Assembly: GCF_030269305.1 (NCBI RefSeq) | Contig: NZ_BSTC01000011.1 | Coordinates: 62,001 to 126,000, forward strand | Direction of reading: 5' to 3' | Length of the DNA: 64,000 nucleotides | Source: Kineosporia sp. NBRC 101731 | Lineage (GTDB): Bacteria > Actinomycetota > Actinomycetes > Actinomycetales > Kineosporiaceae | In this document: piece after piece, positions 24,235 through 37,038 of the stretch | Layout of the letters: the number at the start of each line of letters is the position of its first letter | How positions within the stretch are numbered: the first letter of the stretch is position 1 | Translations under genes and position numbers: made by a program | The notes under the pieces: generated by a model | The model's database searches: none | The model's input: only the letters and a program-made list of their open reading frames with translations | Told to the model about the DNA's origin: nothing

Positions 24235-26430
24235 TCACTTCTCGGGGGTTGCCGAGACCTCGGCCCGCCGCTGCGGGAAGTCACCGGTGGCGAGGTGTTC
24301 CAGGACCTCCGAGAGCTGGCCGGCCTTCCAGGGTTTGGGTAGGAAGTCGTCCATCCCGGCCTCCAGGCAGGCGTGCCGGTCATCGTCGAAGGCATTGGCC
24401 GTCATCGCGATCACCGGAGTACGAAGACCCAGCGGACACTCGGCCGCGCGGATCCGCCGGGTCGCCTCCAGCCCGTCCAGCACCGGCATGTGCACGTCCA
24501 TGAAGACGGCGTCGAAGGTTCCGGCCAGCACCGCCGCGACCGCGGCCTCGCCGTCGTCCACCATGTCGACCACCAGCCCGCGGGAGGTGAGCATGGCCCG
24601 GGCGATCAGCTGGTTGGTCTCGTTGTCCTCGGCCACCAGGACGTGCTTGCCCGCCAGGGTGGCCTCCGGGGACCGGCGCGGACGGGGCACCGCCGCGACC
24701 GGCACCGGTGCCGCGGTCCGGGGCAGCGCGACGAGCAGGGAGAACCGGGTGCCCTGACCGGGGTCGGAACTGACGCTCAGCTGCCCACCCATCGCCAGCG
24801 TGAGTCCTTGCGCGATCGACAGGCCCAGGCCGGTGCCGCCGTACCGCCGGGTGGTGTCGGAGGAGGCCTGCACGAAGGGCCGGAACAGGTTCTTCATCTG
24901 CTCGGTGTCCATCCCGATCCCGGTGTCGGCGACCACCAGACGCACGCGGTCACCCGCGTCCTCGATCGTGACCGTCACCGACCCCTGATCGGTGAACTTC
25001 ACCGCGTTGGCGATCAGGTTGGTGAGGACCTGCCGCAGTCGGGTCGGGTCACCCGTGCGGTAACGGTGCAGGCCGTCCGCGGTCTCGAGAATCAGCTGGA
25101 TCCCGGCCTGTTCGGCGCGCGGGCGGGAGGGAAGCAGCGCCTCCCGGGCCACGGCGACCACGTCCAGCGGGACCTGTTCCAGGTCGATCCCGCCGGCCTC
25201 GATCTTGGCCACGTCAAGACTGTCGTTGACGATGTCGAGCAGCACGTGCCCGGCCCGGTCGGCGCCCGAGATCCACTCGGGAGTCTGCGGGGAGCCCGGG
25301 TTCTCGGCCAGCAGCGAGGTGTAGCCGAGCACCCCGTTCAGCGGTGTGCGGATCTCGTGGCTCATCGTGGCCAGGAAGTCGCTCTTGTGCCGGGACGCCA
25401 CGCGCAGTTCCTGCGCCTGCTCCTCGGAGGTGGCCCGGGCCCGGCGCAGTTGCGCGATCAGTTCCTGGCGCTCGTCGCGGTGCAGCGCGAGCACGAGGGC
25501 CACCAGCGCCGCGATCGCCACGAACGCCTGGGCCAGCAGGACGCGGGTGGCCGGGGAGGTGGCCACGAACGGCCCGTGGCCGGTCAGGGTGAAACTGAGG
25601 ACGCCGACGGCCACCAGCCACACATGCGCGGCTACCAGCGTGGTGTCGAAGCGCAACGAGAACCACATCGACAGCGGCAGCACCAGATAGGACAGCGGCA
25701 GACCGTCCGCGAGCCCGAAGACCACCCCGTAGGCCACGGCGAACAGCAGGGTGGCCACCACCAGTTCGAGTTCGCGCTCGCGGGGCGGGACCAGGCCGGC
25801 CAGGCCGTTGCCGGCGATCCGCAGGGCCAGCGCGGCGAAGACGAAGGTGTTGGTGGCGTTGCGCAGCGTCCAGGCCCCGGCCAGGTTCCAGAACTCGAGG
25901 TGGGACGAGGTGGCCAGGGCGGCGGGGCCGAGCAGGGCGCCGGCTGCGGCCCCGGCCAGGGCGGCCAGTACCCAGAAGGCCAGGTCGGCCGAGCGTCTCA
26001 GTCGCCAGGCCTGCGGCCGCAACCGGCTCAGCACGGCGGTCTCGACCAGGGCCTGGACCACGTTGGCGACGCCGAGCGCCAGTGAGATCGGCAGGGACAG
26101 GTCGCCGGCGAGGTGGTTGATCGCGGTGGCCACGGCGGCCATCACCACCGAGCTGACCACCAGCGGCGCCCGGCCCCGGGAGCAGGCCCACAACAGCCAG
26201 ACGAACCCGACGGCAGCGGCCGGCCAGACCAGGGACAGGGAGGTGCCGGGCAGCCGGGAGAGCCGCCCCAGCAGCACCGCCACGGCGTAGACGACGGTGA
26301 AGACCGGCACCATGATCACGACGGGTGCCGACGGCCACGGACCCAGGTGCCGGGTTGTTCCCTGATCCGTGCCCACGCGACTTTTTCGACGCCCGGAGCT
26401 GGACGGGTGAGCAGCCGCTCCGGTCGTCAC
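24235..26430 (-). CDS. Membrane hybrid sensor histidine kinase with C-terminal receiver (MASE1-like sensor)
   Basis: The 731-residue protein has an N-terminal block of about eight membrane helices resembling MASE1 (GTSLSLVWPAAAVGFVWLL at about residue 63), a short coiled region, HisKA with the phospho-histidine in LATMSHEIRTPLNGVLGY, HATPase_c (LTNLIANAVKFTDQGSVTV, VADTGIGMD, GTGLGLSIAQGLTLAMGG), and a receiver domain (VLVAEDNETNQLIARAML, aspartate in FMDVHMPVLDGLEAT). It would autophosphorylate and pass the phosphate to its own receiver and then to a separate phosphotransfer protein. There is no partner gene beside it. The start is uncertain: the ATG at 26430 is nearly in contact with a 10-bp tandem repeat array. 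Confidence 0.9.
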   Translation of the reverse strand: MTTGAAAHPSSSGRRKSRVGTDQGTTRHLGPWPSAPVVIMVPVFTVVYAVAVLLGRLSRLPGTSLSLVWPAAAVGFVWLLWACSRGRAPLVVSSVVMAAVATAINHLAGDLSLPISLALGVANVVQALVETAVLSRLRPQAWRLRRSADLAFWVLAALAGAAAGALLGPAALATSSHLEFWNLAGAWTLRNATNTFVFAALALRIAGNGLAGLVPPRERELELVVATLLFAVAYGVVFGLADGLPLSYLVLPLSMWFSLRFDTTLVAAHVWLVAVGVLSFTLTGHGPFVATSPATRVLLAQAFVAIAALVALVLALHRDERQELIAQLRRARATSEEQAQELRVASRHKSDFLATMSHEIRTPLNGVLGYTSLLAENPGSPQTPEWISGADRAGHVLLDIVNDSLDVAKIEAGGIDLEQVPLDVVAVAREALLPSRPRAEQAGIQLILETADGLHRYRTGDPTRLRQVLTNLIANAVKFTDQGSVTVTIEDAGDRVRLVVADTGIGMDTEQMKNLFRPFVQASSDTTRRYGGTGLGLSIAQGLTLAMGGQLSVSSDPGQGTRFSLLVALPRTAAPVPVAAVPRPRRSPEATLAGKHVLVAEDNETNQLIARAMLTSRGLVVDMVDDGEAAVAAVLAGTFDAVFMDVHMPVLDGLEATRRIRAAECPLGLRTPVIAMTANAFDDDRHACLEAGMDDFLPKPWKAGQLSEVLEHLATGDFPQRRAEVSATPEK

Positions 26431-28809: not shown

Positions 28810-29823
28810 TCAGCCCTTGAACTGGATCCCGGAGAGGATCTCCTCGATCTGGGCGACCTCGTCGTCGGACAGGGCGATGTTGCCCAGCGCCTCGACGTTC
28901 TGGTCCAGCTGCTGCACCGACGAGGCACCGATGACCAGCGAGGTGACCCGCTCGTCACGCAGGGCCCAGGCCAGGGCCAGCTGGGCCAGTGACTGACCGC
29001 GCTTCTCACCGATCGCGGCCAGGCTGCGCAGACCCGCCTGGAGGTCCTCGGTGATCACGCCCGCGTCGAGGGTCTTGCCCTGGGTGGCGCGTGAGCCCTC
29101 GGGAATGCCGTTGAGGTACCGGTTGGTCAGCAGGCCCTGCTGCAGCGCCATGAACGCGATCACGCCGAAGCCCTCGTCGGCCGCGGCGTCGAGCAGGCCG
29201 TCGTCTTCGATCCAGCGGTTCAGCATCGAGTAGGACGGCTGGTGGATGAGCAGCGGGGTGCCCAGCTCGCGCAGCAGCCCGGCGATCTCGCGCGACTGTG
29301 CGGCGGTGTAGCTGGAGATGCCCACGTACAGCGCCTTGCCCTGACGGACCGCGGCGTCGAGCGCGGTCGCGGTCTCCTCCAGCGGCGTGGTCGGGTCGAA
29401 GCGGTGCGAGTAGAAGATGTCGACGTAGTCCAGTCCCAGACGCGTCAGCGACTGGTCCAGCGACGACAGCATGTACTTACGGCCGCCGCCGCCCTGGCCG
29501 TAGGGGCCGGCCCACATGTCGTACCCGGCCTTGGTCGAGATGACCAGCTCGTCGCGGTACGGCTTGAGGTCGGAGGAGAACAGCCGGCCGGCGTTGATCT
29601 CGGCGCTGCCGTAGGGCGGGCCGTAGTTGTTGGCCAGGTCGAAGTGGGTGATGCCCAGGTCGAACGCGCGCAGTGCGATGTCCCGCTGAACGCTCCACGG
29701 CTTGTCGTCGCCGAAGTTGTGCCAGAAGCCGAGGGACAGCATCGGCAGGTCGAGCCCGGAACGACCCGTGCGGCGGTAGCTCATGCTGCCGTCGTAACGG
29801 GCGGGATCGGGGCGGTAGGTCAT
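28810..29823 (-). CDS. Aldo/keto reductase, YghZ / Kv-beta-like
   Basis: This 337-residue reductase closely follows the YghZ (L-glyceraldehyde-3-phosphate reductase) group: YRRTGRSGLDLPMLSLGFWHN at the start, FDLANNYGPPYGSAE with the catalytic tyrosine, ISTKAGYDMWAGPYG with the lysine, DIFYSHRFDPTTPLEET with the histidine, and the C-terminal NADP-binding VTSLVIGASSVQQLDQN. It probably detoxifies aldehydes such as methylglyoxal, as E. coli YghZ does. It is transcribed away from the very large kinase/GGDEF gene, with about 150 bp between starts. Confidence 0.93.
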   Translation of the reverse strand: MTYRPDPARYDGSMSYRRTGRSGLDLPMLSLGFWHNFGDDKPWSVQRDIALRAFDLGITHFDLANNYGPPYGSAEINAGRLFSSDLKPYRDELVISTKAGYDMWAGPYGQGGGGRKYMLSSLDQSLTRLGLDYVDIFYSHRFDPTTPLEETATALDAAVRQGKALYVGISSYTAAQSREIAGLLRELGTPLLIHQPSYSMLNRWIEDDGLLDAAADEGFGVIAFMALQQGLLTNRYLNGIPEGSRATQGKTLDAGVITEDLQAGLRSLAAIGEKRGQSLAQLALAWALRDERVTSLVIGASSVQQLDQNVEALGNIALSDDEVAQIEEILSGIQFKG

Positions 29824-29975
29824 CGGTGCGCTCCAACGGGGTGGGTCGAGTCGGTGGCCTCGTTGGCCGAGTCACATTCTGTCCTGCGCCCGGCCCGGCG
29901 ACGACATCGGCCTCGCTCGCCCGTCGGGGTGACCGCCCCGGTCAAGCTGCCACCGGTTCCGGCCGAACGGGAAAT

Positions 29976-32900
29976 GTGAGTCCGGAGCAGAGGGGGACCC
30001 CGGGCCCCGGGACGGGCACGGCGTCGGTCGGTGTGTCCGTCGACCTACCCGATTTCGAGGTACTGGGTCAGCTGGGTGGGGGAGCAGGCAGCACCGTGTA
30101 CCGGGTGCGCCGTCGCCGGGACGGGGCGACACCCGACACCCACGAAGCCCTCGACGCTCAGGATGCCCGGGACGTCCAGGAGTACGCCCTGAAGCTGCTG
30201 GACCGGCCCGACGGGCTGGCGGGCCTGCGGCGCGAGGCCGCGCTGCTGACCGCCGTGGACCACCCCGGTCTGCCCCAGGTGCATCAGGTGGGGATGGCCG
30301 ACCGCCGCCCGTACCTGGTGATGGACCTGGTGCGCGGCACCTCCCTGGCCGACGAGCTGACCCGCGGCGCGCTGCCCGCCGAGCGGGTGGTGGCGCTGGT
30401 GCTGGACGTGATCGAGCCGCTGGCCGCGGTGCACGCGCGCGGTCTGGTGCACCGTGACCTGAAGCCGCAGAACGTCATGGTGCTGCCCGACGGGCAGGCC
30501 CGGCTCATCGACTTCGGCCTCACCGCCCGCGAGGGCGAGGACGAGGAGAGCGAGACACCGGTCGCGGTAGGCACGCTCGCCTACTCGGCTCCCGAGCAGT
30601 CGGGCATGCTCAAGCGCCCCGTGGACAACCGGTCCGACCTGTACTCGCTCGGCGTGATCATGTTCGAGGCCCTCTCCGGGGTCCTGCCGTTCCCCACCGC
30701 CGACGTGGGTGAACTGCTGCGCGCGCACGCCTCGCTGGCTGCGCCCGACCTGACCGGCCTGGTGCCCGACACCCCGCCGGAACTTGCCCTGATCGTGGCC
30801 ACCCTGCTGGCCAAGGACCCGGACGACCGGTACCAGGACGGTCGCGCGCTGGCTGAGGACCTGCGGGCCGTGGCCGGCAAGCAGACCGCCGCGGCCCGGG
30901 CGGACAGGGCGCCGATGTTCGGGCGGCAGAACGAACTGGACACCCTGCGACAGCAGTGGACGCGGGTACGCGCCGGCCGCGGCGGGTTCGCCTTCGTGCG
31001 CAGCGACAACGGGCTGGGCAAGACCCGGCTGGTGCACGAGTTCGGCGACCTGGTCGAGGAGACCGGCGGCCTGGTGCTGCGGGCCCGGGTGCTGCCCGAC
31101 GAGGCGCTGCCCTTCGCGGCGTTCCGCGAGGTCTTCGTCCATCATCTGCAGCAGATCGCCCGCCTGCCCCGGGGCGAGCGCTCGGCGTGGGCGGACCGGC
31201 TGCGTGCGGCGTTCGGGAGCTGGTCGCCGGTGATGCTGGCCCGGATCGCGCCCGGGCTCGACGCCGTGGTGCGGCCGGGCGGGGAGGCTGCCCCGGATGC
31301 GGCTCTCTCCTCGGCCTCGGCCGAGGAGACGCTGCACTCGCCGCGCGAGATCGCGGCCCTCACCGGGCAGCTGCCCCCGGACGGGGGACCGGCCGAGGGA
31401 GCCGGCGAGCTCCGGGCCGACGCCCTGGTCGAACAGCAGAACGACGAGCAGTTCGGGGCGGCGATCGCGGCGGCACTGCTCGACCTGGCCCGCACCTCCG
31501 GCGGGCTGCTGCTGATCCTCGACGACGTGACCGCCGCCGACGCGTCCGTCCGTCAGGTGATCGGGCATCTCGCCGAGCAGGTCCGCGACGTGCCGATGCT
31601 CTACCTGGGCACCGGCCGCGACGGTGAGCTGGAGCGGGTGCTCGGCAACGCCGACCTGACCGCCTACGTGGCCCAGGCGACCCGGGTGCTCGACATCGAC
31701 CTGCGGCTGGCGCCGCTGGACGAGTCGGCCGTCGGCTCCCAGATCCGCTCGCTGATCCCCGGCCAGCGCCTGCCCGACGCGGATCTGGCCGCCCTCACCA
31801 CCCGCAGCAACGGCAACCCGTTCATCGCCCAGGAGTACCTGTGGGCGGTGCTGGACGCCGGCCTGCTGTGGCCGGACTGGGGCACGTGGCAGCTCGACCT
31901 GGACCGCCTCGACGCCCTGGACCTGCCCCAGGATGCGATGGGCCTGCTGGTCAACCGTGTGCAGAACCTCGCCCCGCACGCCCGCGACCTGTTGGTGGTG
32001 GCCGCCGCCATGGGGGCCGAGGTGCGGGTCGACGTGGTCGCGGCCGTCGAGCGGCGCAGCACGGCCAGTGTGCTGGGCGTGTTCACCGAGGCCGCCCGAC
32101 AGCGACTGGTCGAGCCGGCCGAAGGGGGCACGTTCCGGTTCCTGCACGGCCGTATCGCCGAGGCGGTGCTCGCCGAGCTGACCCCCGCCCAGCTGGAGCA
32201 ACTGCACCTGCGCATCGCCGACGTGCTGGCCACCCGCCGCTCCGCCTCGTTCACCCAGGCCGTCGCCCACACCTTCGCGGTGGCCCGGCACTACCTGAAG
32301 GCCGGTTCCACGGCCTCGGCCGACAAGGTCTACGCCTCCTGCCTGGAGGCGGGCAAGCTCGCGCTGGAGGAGTCCGCGGCCGAGGACGCCGTCATGTTCC
32401 TCGAGCACGCCGCCCATCTGGCCCGCCGGCGCGAGAACGGTTCCAGCGCGGTGCTCGTGCTGCTGGGCCGGGCCCTGAAACAGGCCGGGCAGTTCAGTGC
32501 CTCCCGGCGCCGGCTGGAACAGGCCCTGGCGGTCGAGAAGGACCCGCTGGCCCAGGCCGCCATCCACACCCTGCTGGCCGAGGTGCACCGGGCCGGCTAC
32601 CGCAGCGAGGAACTGCGCGACGCCATCGCCAAGGGCTTCGCTGCAGCCGGAAAAACTCTGCCGCGCAGCACTTTCTGGTTGATCTTCAGCTCAGTGGCGA
32701 TGGCCCTGGCCTCGGTCGTACGGCGGCGTCTGCGCCCGGTGCTCGGCGATGTCAGCGGCGAGGCCCGGCGCCGCGCGCTGACGATGGCGGGGCTGCACGA
32801 GGCCGCGATCGTCGGCGCGAACCTGGGGATGCGGGTACCCGAGTTCATCGCCCACAACCTGCGCGCGCTGTACTGGGCGGCGAAGCTCGGCCACGGCCGC

Positions 32901-35486
32901 CGGTTCGTGGCGGCCCAGGCCAATGTCGGCGTGCTGTGCGCGGCCGTGGGCCTGAACCGGGCCGCGGAGCGCTGTTACCGTCGCTGCGACGGTGACCCCT
33001 CGGCGCACACCCCGCAGACCCGCTCGATGCTGCGCTCGTTCCGCCTCGGGGGTTCCTGGGCGGGCAACCGCCCCGAGGGGCGCGAGTGGCCCCGCCAGTT
33101 CGACGATTTCAGCTCCTGGCTGGACTTCGTGCCGCTGATCGACTCGATCAGCACCTTCAACCTCAACGCCTGCTTCGCGGGGCGTACCGAGGACGCGCAG
33201 CACTGGCTGGCCCAGGGCCGGATGCGGCTCAGCGACCGGGGCGAGGAGATCACCTCGTTCGTCATCGCCCCGGCGATGACGGCCGCCCTGCTGGGCCGGT
33301 CGGTGGAGGCCGAGACCGAGATGTCCCGCCTGAACCGGGTGGCGGACGAGATCGGCGCCCGGCAGCTGAACTTCATCCGGCTGATGGCCGGTCTGTTCGT
33401 GCAGCTGGAGGACGACGGCACCGACGAGTCGGTCGATCACCTGGTCAGCGATATCGAGGCGCTGCGGCTGTCCCCGAGCCTGGTCTGGCGCGCGCAGCGG
33501 CCGATCTTCTGGCTGCTCGCCTCGGCCCGCCTGGCCCAGGCCCGGGCCTGCGCGCACCCCACCACACCCGAGGCGATGAAACAGCAGACGCTGCGGATGA
33601 GCCAGGCGCACCAGGCGGTCGAGACGCTCGGCCGGGCGGCGAACACCGAGGAACTCAAGGCCTTCTGGGCCGTGGCGCGGGCCGACCTGCTAATGCTGCA
33701 GGACCAGCCCCGCAAGGCCCTGGACGTGCTGGCCGGCCTGGACGTCGCGGTCGAGGACGACCTGCCGACCGTGGCCTTCGAGGTGGCCCGGATCGCGGCG
33801 CGGGCCCTGCACTCGCTGAATCCGAAGGAGAGCCATCGCCGCGCCCGTACGGCCTACACGGTGGCGGTCGCGGAGGGCTGGCCCCAGCGGGCCGCGTCCG
33901 TGGTCCGCGAGTTCTCCCTTCCCGTGGAGGACCGGGTCCTGCGCACCGGTGGCAGCCACGACAACACCTACTCCGGCAGCCACGAACGCGAGCGCCTGGA
34001 GGCTCTGCAGGAGGTCAGCGCGGCTGCGGCCAGGGTGCTGGACCCTCGCGTGCTGGCCCGTATCGCCCTGGACGAGACCATCCGCATCCTCGCCGCCGAC
34101 CGCGCGTTCCTGTTCCTGGTCGATTCCGACACCGGCACGCTGACCCAGCACCTGGGCCGGTCGGCCGCCGGGGAGGACCTGGAGAGGCTGACCGGTTACA
34201 GCACGAGCGTGGTCGAGATGGTCTGGCGCACGGGCGAGGCGAAGGTACTGGCCGGGACGGAGGAGGGGGCCGCGCTCGGGGCGCAGAGCGTGGTGCTGCA
34301 CGGTCTGCGGTCGATCCTGGTGGCCCCGATGATGCTCGACGGCCGGATGCGGGGCGTGGTCTACCTCGACAGTCAGGTGGCCAAGGGCATCTTCACCCAC
34401 CACGACACCGTCATCCTGGGCGCCCTGACCAGTTTCGTGGCCTCGTCCCTGGAGACGGCCCGCGCCGCCCAGCTGGCGATCAAGGCGCAGACGGCCGAGC
34501 GGTCGGCCGAGCTGGCGAAGGCGCTGCAGCAGGCGCAGGAGCGGATGGCCGAGCCGGTCGAGCCGATGGGTGTGCTCAACCAGCTCCTGCTGTCGGCCGG
34601 CCGGGGCGGTGGGGTGCTCGGCGCCGACACCGCGTTCGTGGTGCGCCCGGGGCGTTCCGGGGTCGGGAACCGCACCGGCATCGTCCTCACTCCGGACGTG
34701 CGACTGCCCTTGATGACGGCGTTCACCGACGACGGCAGCGCGTCGGCGATCTCCGGTGTGCTGACACCGGTCTCGGGGGATGCGAGCAACGCCCCGGCAC
34801 CCCTGCCCGACCGGCTGCCGGGCCTCTCCTCGTGGGTGGCCCTGCCGTTGCGGGCCACCGACGTCGACCTGGGTCTGCTCGTGCTCGGGGCGCAGGACGC
34901 CGAGAGCCCGCTGTCGGCGTCGGTCGACCTGGCCGCCGCCCTGGTGGCGCAGGGCATGACCGCCTACGACCGGGCCGCCTTGTTCGAGCGGGTGCAGGAA
35001 CTGGCCGTGGTGGACGAGCTGACCCAGCTGGCCAACCGGCGCCGGTTCTTCGAGATCGCAGCCCGCGACCTGGAGGCGGCCCAGCGCCAGGACCGGCCGC
35101 TGATCGGCATGATGATGGACATCGACCACTTCAAGCGGGTCAACGACAACCACGGCCACCCGACCGGTGACGACGTGATCGCCGAGGTCGCCCGCCGCCT
35201 GGCTGCCCAGGTGCGCACCACCGATGTGATCGGCCGCTACGGCGGCGAGGAGTTCGCCGTGCTGCAGCAGGGCGACGACCCGGATCTGGAACTCGCCGAG
35301 CGGCTGCGGCTCTGCATCTGCGAGAAGCCGGTCGAGACCCGCACCGGCCCGTTGCCGATCACGATCAGCATCGGCGTCGCGCACCTGCGGGCGGACGACG
35401 AGGATGTGGCCTCCCTGCTGGCCCGCGCCGACCAGGGCCTCTACAAGGCCAAGGAGGGCGGGCGCAACCAGGTCGGCGTCGTCTGA
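29976..35486 (+). CDS. Serine/threonine kinase - AAA ATPase - TPR-like - GAF - GGDEF multidomain signalling protein
   Basis: This is a 1836-residue cytoplasmic protein. Residues about 20-295 are a PknB-type kinase: glycine loop GQLGGGAGSTVY, lysine 73 in YALKLLD, HRDLKPQNVM at 159-168, DFGLT, and APEQ. Residues about 315-720 are an ATPase of the kind seen in MalT and guanylate-cyclase proteins, with P-loop NGLGKTRL near 345 and LLLILDDVTAADASV as Walker B. A helical TPR-like region runs to about 1320. A GAF domain (about 1350-1500; VLARIALDETIRILAADRAF) and a weaker second GAF-like segment precede a GGDEF domain (about 1665-1830) with DIDHFKRVNDNHGH, active-site GGEEF at 1756-1760, and the product-inhibition motif RTTD five residues before it. 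It should both phosphorylate proteins and make cyclic di-GMP. The GTG at 29976 is the likely start; GTG 30030 is an alternative. Confidence 0.9.
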   Translation: MSPEQRGTPGPGTGTASVGVSVDLPDFEVLGQLGGGAGSTVYRVRRRRDGATPDTHEALDAQDARDVQEYALKLLDRPDGLAGLRREAALLTAVDHPGLPQVHQVGMADRRPYLVMDLVRGTSLADELTRGALPAERVVALVLDVIEPLAAVHARGLVHRDLKPQNVMVLPDGQARLIDFGLTAREGEDEESETPVAVGTLAYSAPEQSGMLKRPVDNRSDLYSLGVIMFEALSGVLPFPTADVGELLRAHASLAAPDLTGLVPDTPPELALIVATLLAKDPDDRYQDGRALAEDLRAVAGKQTAAARADRAPMFGRQNELDTLRQQWTRVRAGRGGFAFVRSDNGLGKTRLVHEFGDLVEETGGLVLRARVLPDEALPFAAFREVFVHHLQQIARLPRGERSAWADRLRAAFGSWSPVMLARIAPGLDAVVRPGGEAAPDAALSSASAEETLHSPREIAALTGQLPPDGGPAEGAGELRADALVEQQNDEQFGAAIAAALLDLARTSGGLLLILDDVTAADASVRQVIGHLAEQVRDVPMLYLGTGRDGELERVLGNADLTAYVAQATRVLDIDLRLAPLDESAVGSQIRSLIPGQRLPDADLAALTTRSNGNPFIAQEYLWAVLDAGLLWPDWGTWQLDLDRLDALDLPQDAMGLLVNRVQNLAPHARDLLVVAAAMGAEVRVDVVAAVERRSTASVLGVFTEAARQRLVEPAEGGTFRFLHGRIAEAVLAELTPAQLEQLHLRIADVLATRRSASFTQAVAHTFAVARHYLKAGSTASADKVYASCLEAGKLALEESAAEDAVMFLEHAAHLARRRENGSSAVLVLLGRALKQAGQFSASRRRLEQALAVEKDPLAQAAIHTLLAEVHRAGYRSEELRDAIAKGFAAAGKTLPRSTFWLIFSSVAMALASVVRRRLRPVLGDVSGEARRRALTMAGLHEAAIVGANLGMRVPEFIAHNLRALYWAAKLGHGRRFVAAQANVGVLCAAVGLNRAAERCYRRCDGDPSAHTPQTRSMLRSFRLGGSWAGNRPEGREWPRQFDDFSSWLDFVPLIDSISTFNLNACFAGRTEDAQHWLAQGRMRLSDRGEEITSFVIAPAMTAALLGRSVEAETEMSRLNRVADEIGARQLNFIRLMAGLFVQLEDDGTDESVDHLVSDIEALRLSPSLVWRAQRPIFWLLASARLAQARACAHPTTPEAMKQQTLRMSQAHQAVETLGRAANTEELKAFWAVARADLLMLQDQPRKALDVLAGLDVAVEDDLPTVAFEVARIAARALHSLNPKESHRRARTAYTVAVAEGWPQRAASVVREFSLPVEDRVLRTGGSHDNTYSGSHERERLEALQEVSAAAARVLDPRVLARIALDETIRILAADRAFLFLVDSDTGTLTQHLGRSAAGEDLERLTGYSTSVVEMVWRTGEAKVLAGTEEGAALGAQSVVLHGLRSILVAPMMLDGRMRGVVYLDSQVAKGIFTHHDTVILGALTSFVASSLETARAAQLAIKAQTAERSAELAKALQQAQERMAEPVEPMGVLNQLLLSAGRGGGVLGADTAFVVRPGRSGVGNRTGIVLTPDVRLPLMTAFTDDGSASAISGVLTPVSGDASNAPAPLPDRLPGLSSWVALPLRATDVDLGLLVLGAQDAESPLSASVDLAAALVAQGMTAYDRAALFERVQELAVVDELTQLANRRRFFEIAARDLEAAQRQDRPLIGMMMDIDHFKRVNDNHGHPTGDDVIAEVARRLAAQVRTTDVIGRYGGEEFAVLQQGDDPDLELAERLRLCICEKPVETRTGPLPITISIGVAHLRADDEDVASLLARADQGLYKAKEGGRNQVGVV

Positions 35487-35487
35487 C

Positions 35488-37038
35488 CTACCAGTCGGTG
35501 GGCTCGTAGTCCTTGAGGAAGATGCCGTACAGGTCCTCGCCGGCCTCGCCCCGCACGATCGGGTCGTAGACCCGGGCCGCTCCGTCGACCAGGTCCAGGG
35601 GGGCGTGGAAACCCTCGTCCGCCAGCCGGATCTTGGTCGGGTGGGGCCGCTCGTCGGTGATCCAGCCGGTGTCGACGGCCGTCATCAGGATGCGGTCGCT
35701 CTCCCACATCTCCCGCGCGCTGGTGCGCGTGAGCATGTTCAGCGCGGCCTTGGCCATGTTCGTGTGCGGGTGGCCCGGGCCCTTGTACCCCCGGCTGAAC
35801 TTGCCCTCCATGGCCGACACGTTGACCACGTACTTGCGGTGCGAACCGGCCGCGGCCATTGCCGGGCGCAGTCGGCTGATCAGGATGAACGGCGCGACGC
35901 TGTTGCACAGCTGCACCTCGAGCAGCTCCACCGGGTCGACCTCCTGCACCGGCTGCACCCAGCTGTTGGTGTGGTGCAGGTCGGGCACCAGGCCCCCGGC
36001 GTCGATCGCGGTGTTGGCGGCGATGCGAGCAGGGGACGCGGAACCGGCCGTGAGCGCGAGAGCTGTCAGGGCGTGGGGGGAGGGCGCCCAGTGGCCGTTG
36101 CTCACGCCGCCCTCCTCGTGCACCGCGCCCGCGATCGCGTCGATGGACGCCGGGTGCGCCTCCGGGGTGCGGCCGATCGTCAGCATCTCCGGCAGCGGGC
36201 CCTCGGGCAGCGGCGCCGACTCGGCAGCGGCCAAGGGGGCGTACGAGCCGGGGGAGCGGCGCACCGTCTGCGCGGCGTTGTTGATCAGGATGTCCAGCGG
36301 ACCCTGCGCGGCCACGTCGTCGGCCAGCGCGCTGACCTGGGCCGGGTCGCGCAGGTCGATGCCGATGATGCGCAGCCGGTGGATCCAGTCCTGGCTGTCG
36401 TCCATCGAGGTGAAGCGGCGCACGGCATCGGCCGGGAAGCGCGTGGTGATGGTCAGGTGCGCGCCGTCGCGCAGCAGCCGCAGCGCGATGTGCATGCCGA
36501 TCTTGGCCCGCCCGCCGGTGAGCAGGGCGCGGCGGCCGGTCAGGTCGGTTCGCGCGTCGCGGCGCTGCCGGTTCTTCGCGGCGCAGTCGGGGCACAGCTG
36601 GTGGTAGAACACGTCGACCCGGGTGTAGCGCTTCTTGCAGGTGTAGCAGCCGCGCGGGCGCATGTACTCGCCGGCCGAGCCGGTCTCGTCGCCCGTGCCC
36701 TGGTTGGCCTCGGCGGCCGCCGAGGACAGGGGCAGACCCTGGGTCTCGTCGTCGATGCGGCCGGGGGCCCCGGTGGCTGTGGCTGCCGTCACGGCGGCGT
36801 CGTTGGCGTTGATCGTGGCCCGGCGCTGGGCGCGGCGGTCCAGCTTGGCCGCCTTGAAGATCTTCGCAGTGGCCAGCCGCACCTTCAGGAAGTCCGGGTG
36901 CTCGGCCGGCAACTGCTCCACACGGGCCAGTACCTGCAGGCAGAGGTCCAGGTCAGCGGGGTCGATGCCCTCGGCACCGGGGTCGCCGGTGCCGTCGCTC
37001 GGGTCGGTCTCGGCCTGGTCGTCGAGTTGCGCCGTCAT
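35488..37038 (-). CDS. SDR-fold protein with N-terminal helical domain and zinc ribbon
   Basis: The 516-residue protein has an acidic/helical N-terminal part (residues 1-150), a C4 zinc ribbon near 150-175 (CYTCKKRYTRVDVFYHQLC then PDC), and a Rossmann SDR domain: LTGRRALLTGGRAKIGMHIA for nucleotide binding, ILINNAAQTVRR, and VNVSAMEGKF with the conserved serine. Where ordinary SDRs have YxxxK, this one reads HTNMAKAALNML, with threonine in place of the catalytic tyrosine. The family is recognisable as an unusual zinc-ribbon SDR group, but its reaction is not known to me. It ends 1 bp from the stop of the kinase/GGDEF gene (convergent). Confidence 0.8.
   Translation of the reverse strand: MTAQLDDQAETDPSDGTGDPGAEGIDPADLDLCLQVLARVEQLPAEHPDFLKVRLATAKIFKAAKLDRRAQRRATINANDAAVTAATATGAPGRIDDETQGLPLSSAAAEANQGTGDETGSAGEYMRPRGCYTCKKRYTRVDVFYHQLCPDCAAKNRQRRDARTDLTGRRALLTGGRAKIGMHIALRLLRDGAHLTITTRFPADAVRRFTSMDDSQDWIHRLRIIGIDLRDPAQVSALADDVAAQGPLDILINNAAQTVRRSPGSYAPLAAAESAPLPEGPLPEMLTIGRTPEAHPASIDAIAGAVHEEGGVSNGHWAPSPHALTALALTAGSASPARIAANTAIDAGGLVPDLHHTNSWVQPVQEVDPVELLEVQLCNSVAPFILISRLRPAMAAAGSHRKYVVNVSAMEGKFSRGYKGPGHPHTNMAKAALNMLTRTSAREMWESDRILMTAVDTGWITDERPHPTKIRLADEGFHAPLDLVDGAARVYDPIVRGEAGEDLYGIFLKDYEPTDW

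Follow-up and report, generated by a model that had tools for sequence, protein, structure and literature searches.

A predicted single-chain signal integrator of Kineosporia with Ser/Thr kinase, STAND-like, GAF and diguanylate cyclase domains, and the co-occurrence of its family with flagellin-type genes

The idea that a Ser/Thr kinase could be coupled to cyclic di-GMP is already in print, because a Clostridium thermocellum protein of 1826 aa (gi 23020879) combining a STYK domain, 6 TPRs and a GGDEF domain was published in 2005, and the available part of the same paper already suggests that STYKs have a role in making cyclic di-GMP, an output common to histidine kinases (PMC1262709). The protein analysed here likewise carries, on one chain of nearly equal length, an N-terminal Ser/Thr kinase, a centre of helical repeats and a C-terminal GGDEF domain, but the clostridial protein, known to us by description and not by sequence, comes from another phylum, and the available part of its description mentions neither a GAF nor an ATPase domain (PMC1262709). 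The cyanobacterial dual kinases cbSTKIII and HstK, as far as the available part of their description goes, also begin with a Ser/Thr kinase and place a GAF domain before the C-terminal output, which is a histidine kinase in their case and GGDEF in ours (PMC2176072). Since HisKA and HATPase gave no Pfam match in our protein at E 0.001, it falls outside the cbSTKIII/HstK type.

Three other systems offer partial likenesses. The TOMM system kinase/cyclase fusion protein (TIGR03903) joins, by its name, a kinase to a nucleotide cyclase; its model matches our protein with an E-value of 5e-58 over the whole protein, the best of three matched stretches being residues 81-299, and membership was rejected at 196.9 bits against an equivalog cut-off of 705.75. 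The bacteriophytochrome-activated diguanylate cyclase of Idiomarina (5llw) resembles it in joining sensor domains to GGDEF by long helices, and has what we take to be a phytochrome light sensor with neither kinase nor STAND part. PknK-type kinases consist of a kinase followed by a MalT-like, STAND-type AAA/TPR region and, to our knowledge, contain no GAF and no GGDEF; our protein shares with them the kinase followed by such a region, a likeness drawn from description and not from sequence. A 'kinase + MalT-like' protein is listed for M. tuberculosis in the available part of PMC1262709. The literature searched, mostly without subscription journals and for one query covering 20 of 1,625 hits, yielded among its titles and abstracts no study of a kinase-STAND-GAF-GGDEF architecture in actinomycetes, which is a weak negative, and no precedent for the STAND reading, the second GAF domain, the flagellin co-occurrence or the pattern of losses described below. 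The available parts of PMC1592074 and PMC1183210 hold no case of a STYK joined to GGDEF, and that of PMC2671525 concerns two separate proteins.

The window, a stretch of 64,000 nucleotides from Kineosporia sp. NBRC 101731, contains the gene at positions 29976-35486 (+) as a single uninterrupted frame of 1836 aa with a GTG start; the earliest start available to the frame is at 29673. The host genome (8.26 Mb) has 75 GGDEF matches. An orthologue with 66-93% identity (BLASTP) occurs in each of five other genomes of the genus that were searched, and a paralogue with 45-46.5% identity in all six, giving two copies per genome. All five orthologues are single frames running from kinase through GGDEF, and all are flanked by the same two genes, which by our own reading encode an aldo/keto reductase-like protein (28810-29823, -; divergent) and an SDR-type oxidoreductase (35488-37038, -; convergent). 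A frameshift joining two genes, the artefact against which the original prediction had asked to be checked, is ruled out by these single frames and shared flanks. No operon partner was seen at the locus, the gene lying between a divergent and a convergent neighbour. Pairwise dN/dS against two congeners ranges from 0.05 to 0.41 and is below 1 in every domain, so no module looks neutral, and all domains of the protein are under purifying selection.

Other features of the locus deserve mention in their own right. An out-of-frame ATGTGA start-stop pair (29974-29979) overlaps the GTG start, and could affect translation initiation or be there by chance. A few kb from the gene, a frame of 731 aa (24235-26430, -) reads to us as a hybrid histidine kinase, with a hydrophobic N-terminal part, a HisKA-like SHEIRTP motif and a C-terminal receiver. 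One genus orthologue (L059:5875-12501, +) has a frame of 2209 aa, which exceeds the window protein by about 370 residues; the additions lie at the N-terminus and between window-protein residues 439 and 481.

Searches with profile HMMs placed Pkinase, AAA_16, GAF and GGDEF above their curated Pfam cut-offs, and every residue that had been singled out beforehand is present (K73, HRD 159-161, GLGKT 346-350, GGEEF 1756-1760 and RTTD 1747-1750); all coordinates given below for parts of the gene are on the + strand. The Hanks-type Ser/Thr kinase domain (residues 28-287, 30057-30836; PF00069, E 3.3e-34, 118.9 bits against a cut-off of 31.7) contains K73 (30192-30194), E87, HRD 159-161 (30450-30458) and DFG 179-181, the motifs typical of such kinases being the VAIK Lys, the alpha-C Glu, HRD and DFG. 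Diguanylate cyclases are marked by GG[DE]EF, a metal-binding Asp, GTP-binding residues and an RxxD site; the GGDEF domain (residues 1677-1832, 35004-35471; PF00990, E 7.4e-42, 143.3 bits against 23.8) has D1715 and K1720, and its RTTD inhibition site and GGEEF active site span 35214-35255. Both the kinase and the cyclase residues are intact in all 12 genus copies, that is, six orthologues and six paralogue copies.

The part between kinase and GAF is most readily read as a STAND-like module. Residues 314-538 (30915-31589) match AAA_16 (PF13191, E 5.5e-18), and the region has a fold match to the STAND protein 6mfv. The P-loop expected near residue 345 is at that location but lacks the canonical form GxxxxGK[ST]: the altered Walker A SDNGLGKT (residues 343-350, 31002-31025) has Ser for the first Gly and keeps GK[ST] itself. 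This Gly is lost in 6/6 window orthologues (the window protein included) and kept in 6/6 paralogue copies of the genus. STAND proteins are characterized by a Walker B of the form hhhhDD and by a GxP motif; LLLILDD at 511-517 fits the former, and the latter is found as G613-N-P615, with G613 and N614 invariant in 20/20 rows and P615 in 90% or more. The NTPase is followed, as in STAND proteins, by superstructure-forming repeats: the end of the module and a TPR-type superhelix occupy residues ~561-1320 (31656-33935). The AlphaFold2 model of residues 300-1340 (mean pLDDT 82.6, pTM 0.68) comprises a nucleotide-binding domain and a helical superhelix, helical from ~737 to 1313, and its top Foldseek match is the STAND-TPR protein 6mfv_A (E 2.3e-9, 11.0 A rmsd) with a low TM of 0.35 by query length and 0.52 by target length. 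TPR profiles match weakly, and the central-region profile also matches designed TPR proteins and MamA.

Toward the C-terminus, the GAF domain anticipated near 1350-1500 was located by Pfam at residues 1355-1492 (34038-34451; PF01590, E 2.4e-10, and PF13185) and recurs in the AlphaFold2 model of residues 1322-1836 (37-row alignment, mean pLDDT 86.3, pTM 0.55). In this model it is followed by a 51-residue connecting helix (residues 1475-1525, 34398-34550; model helix 154-204), a second GAF-like domain, a second long helix (residues 1646-1678, 34911-35009; model helix 325-357) and GGDEF. The second GAF-like domain (~1530-1641, 34563-34898) has no Pfam match in the window protein and appears degenerate; we recognize it from the modelled strands and helices and from the fold match to 5llw, the best solved match of the C-terminal model in Foldseek (E 2.2e-25, 17% identity). 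The 5llw alignment has an rmsd of 16.7 A over 626 columns, hence the domains match better than their placement. Overall, we read the chain as a kinase followed by a STAND NTPase with its TPR superhelix, two GAF domains and GGDEF.

A membrane-protein reading was rejected: the top 19-residue Kyte-Doolittle means are 1.79 (from residue 673) and 1.71 (from residue 497), both in parts matched or modelled as globular. A hydrophobic helix at ~897-916, with a value of 1.49 in the window protein and of at least 1.6 in 59 of 100 relatives, is modelled by AlphaFold2 inside the superhelix. We take the protein to be probably soluble and predict it to be cytoplasmic, although it may associate with a membrane.

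A GGDEF domain is active only as one of a pair, and this pairing can be controlled by sensors attached through helical linkers. STAND proteins act as switches, reshaping or assembling upon binding nucleotide and ligand. We consider it about an even bet that the protein as a whole, predicted to be cytoplasmic, integrates signals on a single chain and has cyclic di-GMP as its constant output. The STAND/TPR module and the two GAF domains would sense ligands or partner proteins, a change of shape or a dimerisation would pass along the long GAF helices, and these would set two GGDEF domains face to face for cyclic di-GMP synthesis, which the RxxD site would halt by feedback. The kinase at the N-terminus, probably active, would tune the cyclase by phosphorylating its own chain or a partner without being an obligatory trigger. 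In its simplest working, STAND and GAF parts would bring the chains together and position the helices, and the kinase would adjust the result or act on partners. This explanation starts from direct observations, namely the architecture, the intact active-site residues, the purifying selection, the conservation in the genus and the co-occurrence with flagellin-type genes.

The original prediction had held that kinase-ATPase-GAF proteins usually end in histidine kinase or cyclase/regulator domains and had drawn attention to the GGDEF end. That end turned out not to be exceptional, since a kinase-AAA-GAF-GGDEF protein is the best central-region match in 71 of the 73 actinobacterial genomes fetched (71 Micromonosporaceae genomes, G756 and G259). 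These best hits carry all five modules (kinase, AAA, centre, GAF, GGDEF) on a single frame, which makes the GGDEF end the rule in the actinobacteria sampled; the two exceptions are L217, where the kinase match is missing, and L253, split over two frames. The central-region profile was matched in 71 of 250 Micromonosporaceae genomes at E 1e-40 or better, in two of 200 Streptosporangiaceae genomes, and in 18 of a 396-genome phylum sample at E 1e-30 or better, nearly full-length matches in this last sample being confined to our own genome and G259. Among the best 80 of 594 relatives, from which organisms are named as examples only, the same Pfam domain order occurs in Planosporangium, Planomonospora (P. 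venezuelensis is now filed by NCBI as Thiemannella), Couchioplanes, Actinoplanes, Herpetosiphon and a Lachnospiraceae MAG, as well as in Catellatospora with a degenerate kinase, and a histidine kinase forms the C-terminus of relatives from a Margulisiibacteriota MAG, a Polyangia MAG and Burkholderia. Relatives with this order in other genera rule out a unique architecture. A same-family relative in G010 (L067:4552-9684, -) shows no GGDEF match and degenerate kinase residues.

The relative constancy of the modules was assessed on 98 GGDEF-type rows, a table in which each of 73 genomes is represented by its best hit out of more than 110 matches listed, and which omits the HisKA-ended L075 and L078, the duplicates L187 and L223 (identical to L071 and L073) and the split L253. 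The cyclase varies least among the modules: its residue set is complete in 96 rows (L067 has no GGDEF, and L068 is without one tested GGDEF residue) as against 81 for the kinase core, 62 for RxxD and 59 for a canonical Walker A. This bears on the notion that GGDEF might be a sensor of cyclic di-GMP or GTP, with the kinase as the real output: the RxxD site of the window protein would suit such a role, but the catalytic residues are kept in those 96 rows, including a 13-row clade that has an altered kinase and no RxxD, so we regard it as highly improbable.

That clade, from the Micromonosporaceae, makes up 13 of the 17 rows in which the kinase core is altered. The alpha-C Glu is replaced by Gln in 12 of its members, three of which also have Arg for the VAIK Lys, and L217 belongs to it; GGEEF is kept in 13/13, which indicates that the cyclase can be retained without a standard kinase core. 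A direct relay, in which the kinase would phosphorylate itself or the STAND/GAF part in cis and thereby switch GGDEF on or off, was the possibility raised by the original prediction, and agrees with a kinase core intact in 81/98 rows and in 12/12 genus copies, with a kinase dN/dS of 0.19-0.22 against the two congeners, and with the presence of kinase and cyclase on one chain in 71/73 fetched best hits. Against it stand the 13-row clade and the acidic activation-loop segment 185-198, where the 12 genus copies share no conserved Ser/Thr (some are without any) and where any Ser/Thr occurs in 72/100 rows. We therefore hold a relay to be possible but doubtful.

A divergent gene matching the AAA and central profiles adjoins 13 of the 73 fetched loci, and these are exactly the loci of the kinase-altered clade. 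Two such genes, L256:5805-8717 (-) and L257:5832-8774 (-), encode products of 971 and 981 aa in which neither kinase nor GAF nor GGDEF was matched, possibly large LuxR-type regulators, although this is a guess.

Walker A is non-canonical in 39/98 rows, with 30 K-to-R changes, six G-to-S changes (the window orthologues), two GKN and one G-to-V. Most of the K-to-R rows form one clade that includes Actinoplanes utahensis (L246) and the Couchioplanes copies; the Planomonospora pair branches next to this clade. Since 39 rows, among them the six window orthologues, are without the canonical motif, the ATPase is doubtful as an obligatory step, and since rows with an altered Walker A keep GGDEF, retention of the cyclase does not depend on a canonical P-loop. 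In 42 rows both kinase core and Walker A are canonical, the kinase alone in 39 and Walker A alone in 17, with no row having neither, a mutual exclusion significant by a Fisher test that ignores kinship (7e-5). Because the Walker A state changes only seven times and the kinase state four times on a quick tree that carries a long-branch warning, this exclusion may be a chance event.

GGDEF is retained both in rows with an altered kinase core and in other rows with an altered Walker A, which could also mean two independent outputs, the STAND/GAF sensor governing a cyclase and, uncoupled from it, a kinase directed at other proteins. PknK-like kinases, with a comparable STAND/TPR part and no cyclase, give this possibility some plausibility, but the two conserved neighbours suggest no kinase substrate, and we judge it unlikely. 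The single-chain integrator, in which the kinase tunes the cyclase, thus remains our preferred explanation; the activities, the order of signalling, the solubility and the biological role that it assigns are predicted ones.

As a proxy for flagella we used the flagellin N-domain family PF00669, counting matches over the Pfam cut-off, which drops one of 88 Micromonosporaceae genomes (taken as G495 from its E-value) and four of 12 Streptosporangiaceae genomes. In Micromonosporaceae, PF00669 is present in 70/71 genomes with the fusion family and in 17/179 without it (Fisher 2e-44), and in Streptosporangiaceae in 2/2 and 6/198, respectively (Fisher 0.0014), kinship being ignored in both tests; G505 carries the fusion family with no PF00669 match, and most of the 71 Micromonosporaceae genomes come from a few clades. 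In the phylum sample, PF00669 occurs in 2/2 genomes with a nearly full-length match and in 58/394 without (chance 0.023). Accordingly, a nearly full-length match to the fusion family is absent from 58 of the 60 phylum-sample genomes with PF00669, which we count against our preferred explanation. Of eight genomes from the named and MAG loci, four of which are also counted within the 250 Micromonosporaceae, PF00669 matches Planosporangium, Planomonospora, the Micromonosporaceae MAG, Couchioplanes, Actinoplanes and the Lachnospiraceae MAG, and gives no match in Catellatospora and Herpetosiphon, where the domain order is present. The host's own family says nothing on the association because all 13 of its genomes match PF00669, central-region matches being found in eight (eight candidates scored per genome). 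Some PF00669 matches are weak, with E-values of 1e-12 to 1e-21 in several genomes, and PF00669 also catches a hook-associated protein. In the host genome, PF00669 matches lie on contig C1 and the fusion gene on contig C11.

Zoospore formers have the highest numbers of GGDEF proteins in the phylum, where counts range from 0 to 80, according to the available part of PMC10746217; the host genome has 75 GGDEF matches. Any GGDEF family might therefore follow flagella, and the association may be with zoospore-type cyclic di-GMP signalling in general rather than with the fusion family in particular. Our own reading of the co-occurrence is that the fusion protein is a cyclic di-GMP synthase linked to motile-spore life. 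In motile-spore actinomycetes, cyclic di-GMP would probably serve the transitions linking mycelium, flagellated spore and germination. We tentatively suggest that a family of STAND-gated kinase/diguanylate cyclases arose or expanded with flagellated-spore life and helps decide when spores swim or germinate, its cyclase being constant and its kinase core and ATP switch exchangeable.

In the actinobacterial groups sampled, relatives of the fusion family are nearly confined to genomes that carry flagellin-type genes as well. The family provides candidate cyclases for genetic study, with two copies in each of the six genus genomes searched, and its natural variants with an altered kinase core or Walker A are ready comparisons of which module matters. 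If our explanation is true, a single chain would connect cyclic di-GMP to a Ser/Thr kinase and to an NLR-like (STAND) sensor, in bacteria with spores that swim for no more than a few hours.
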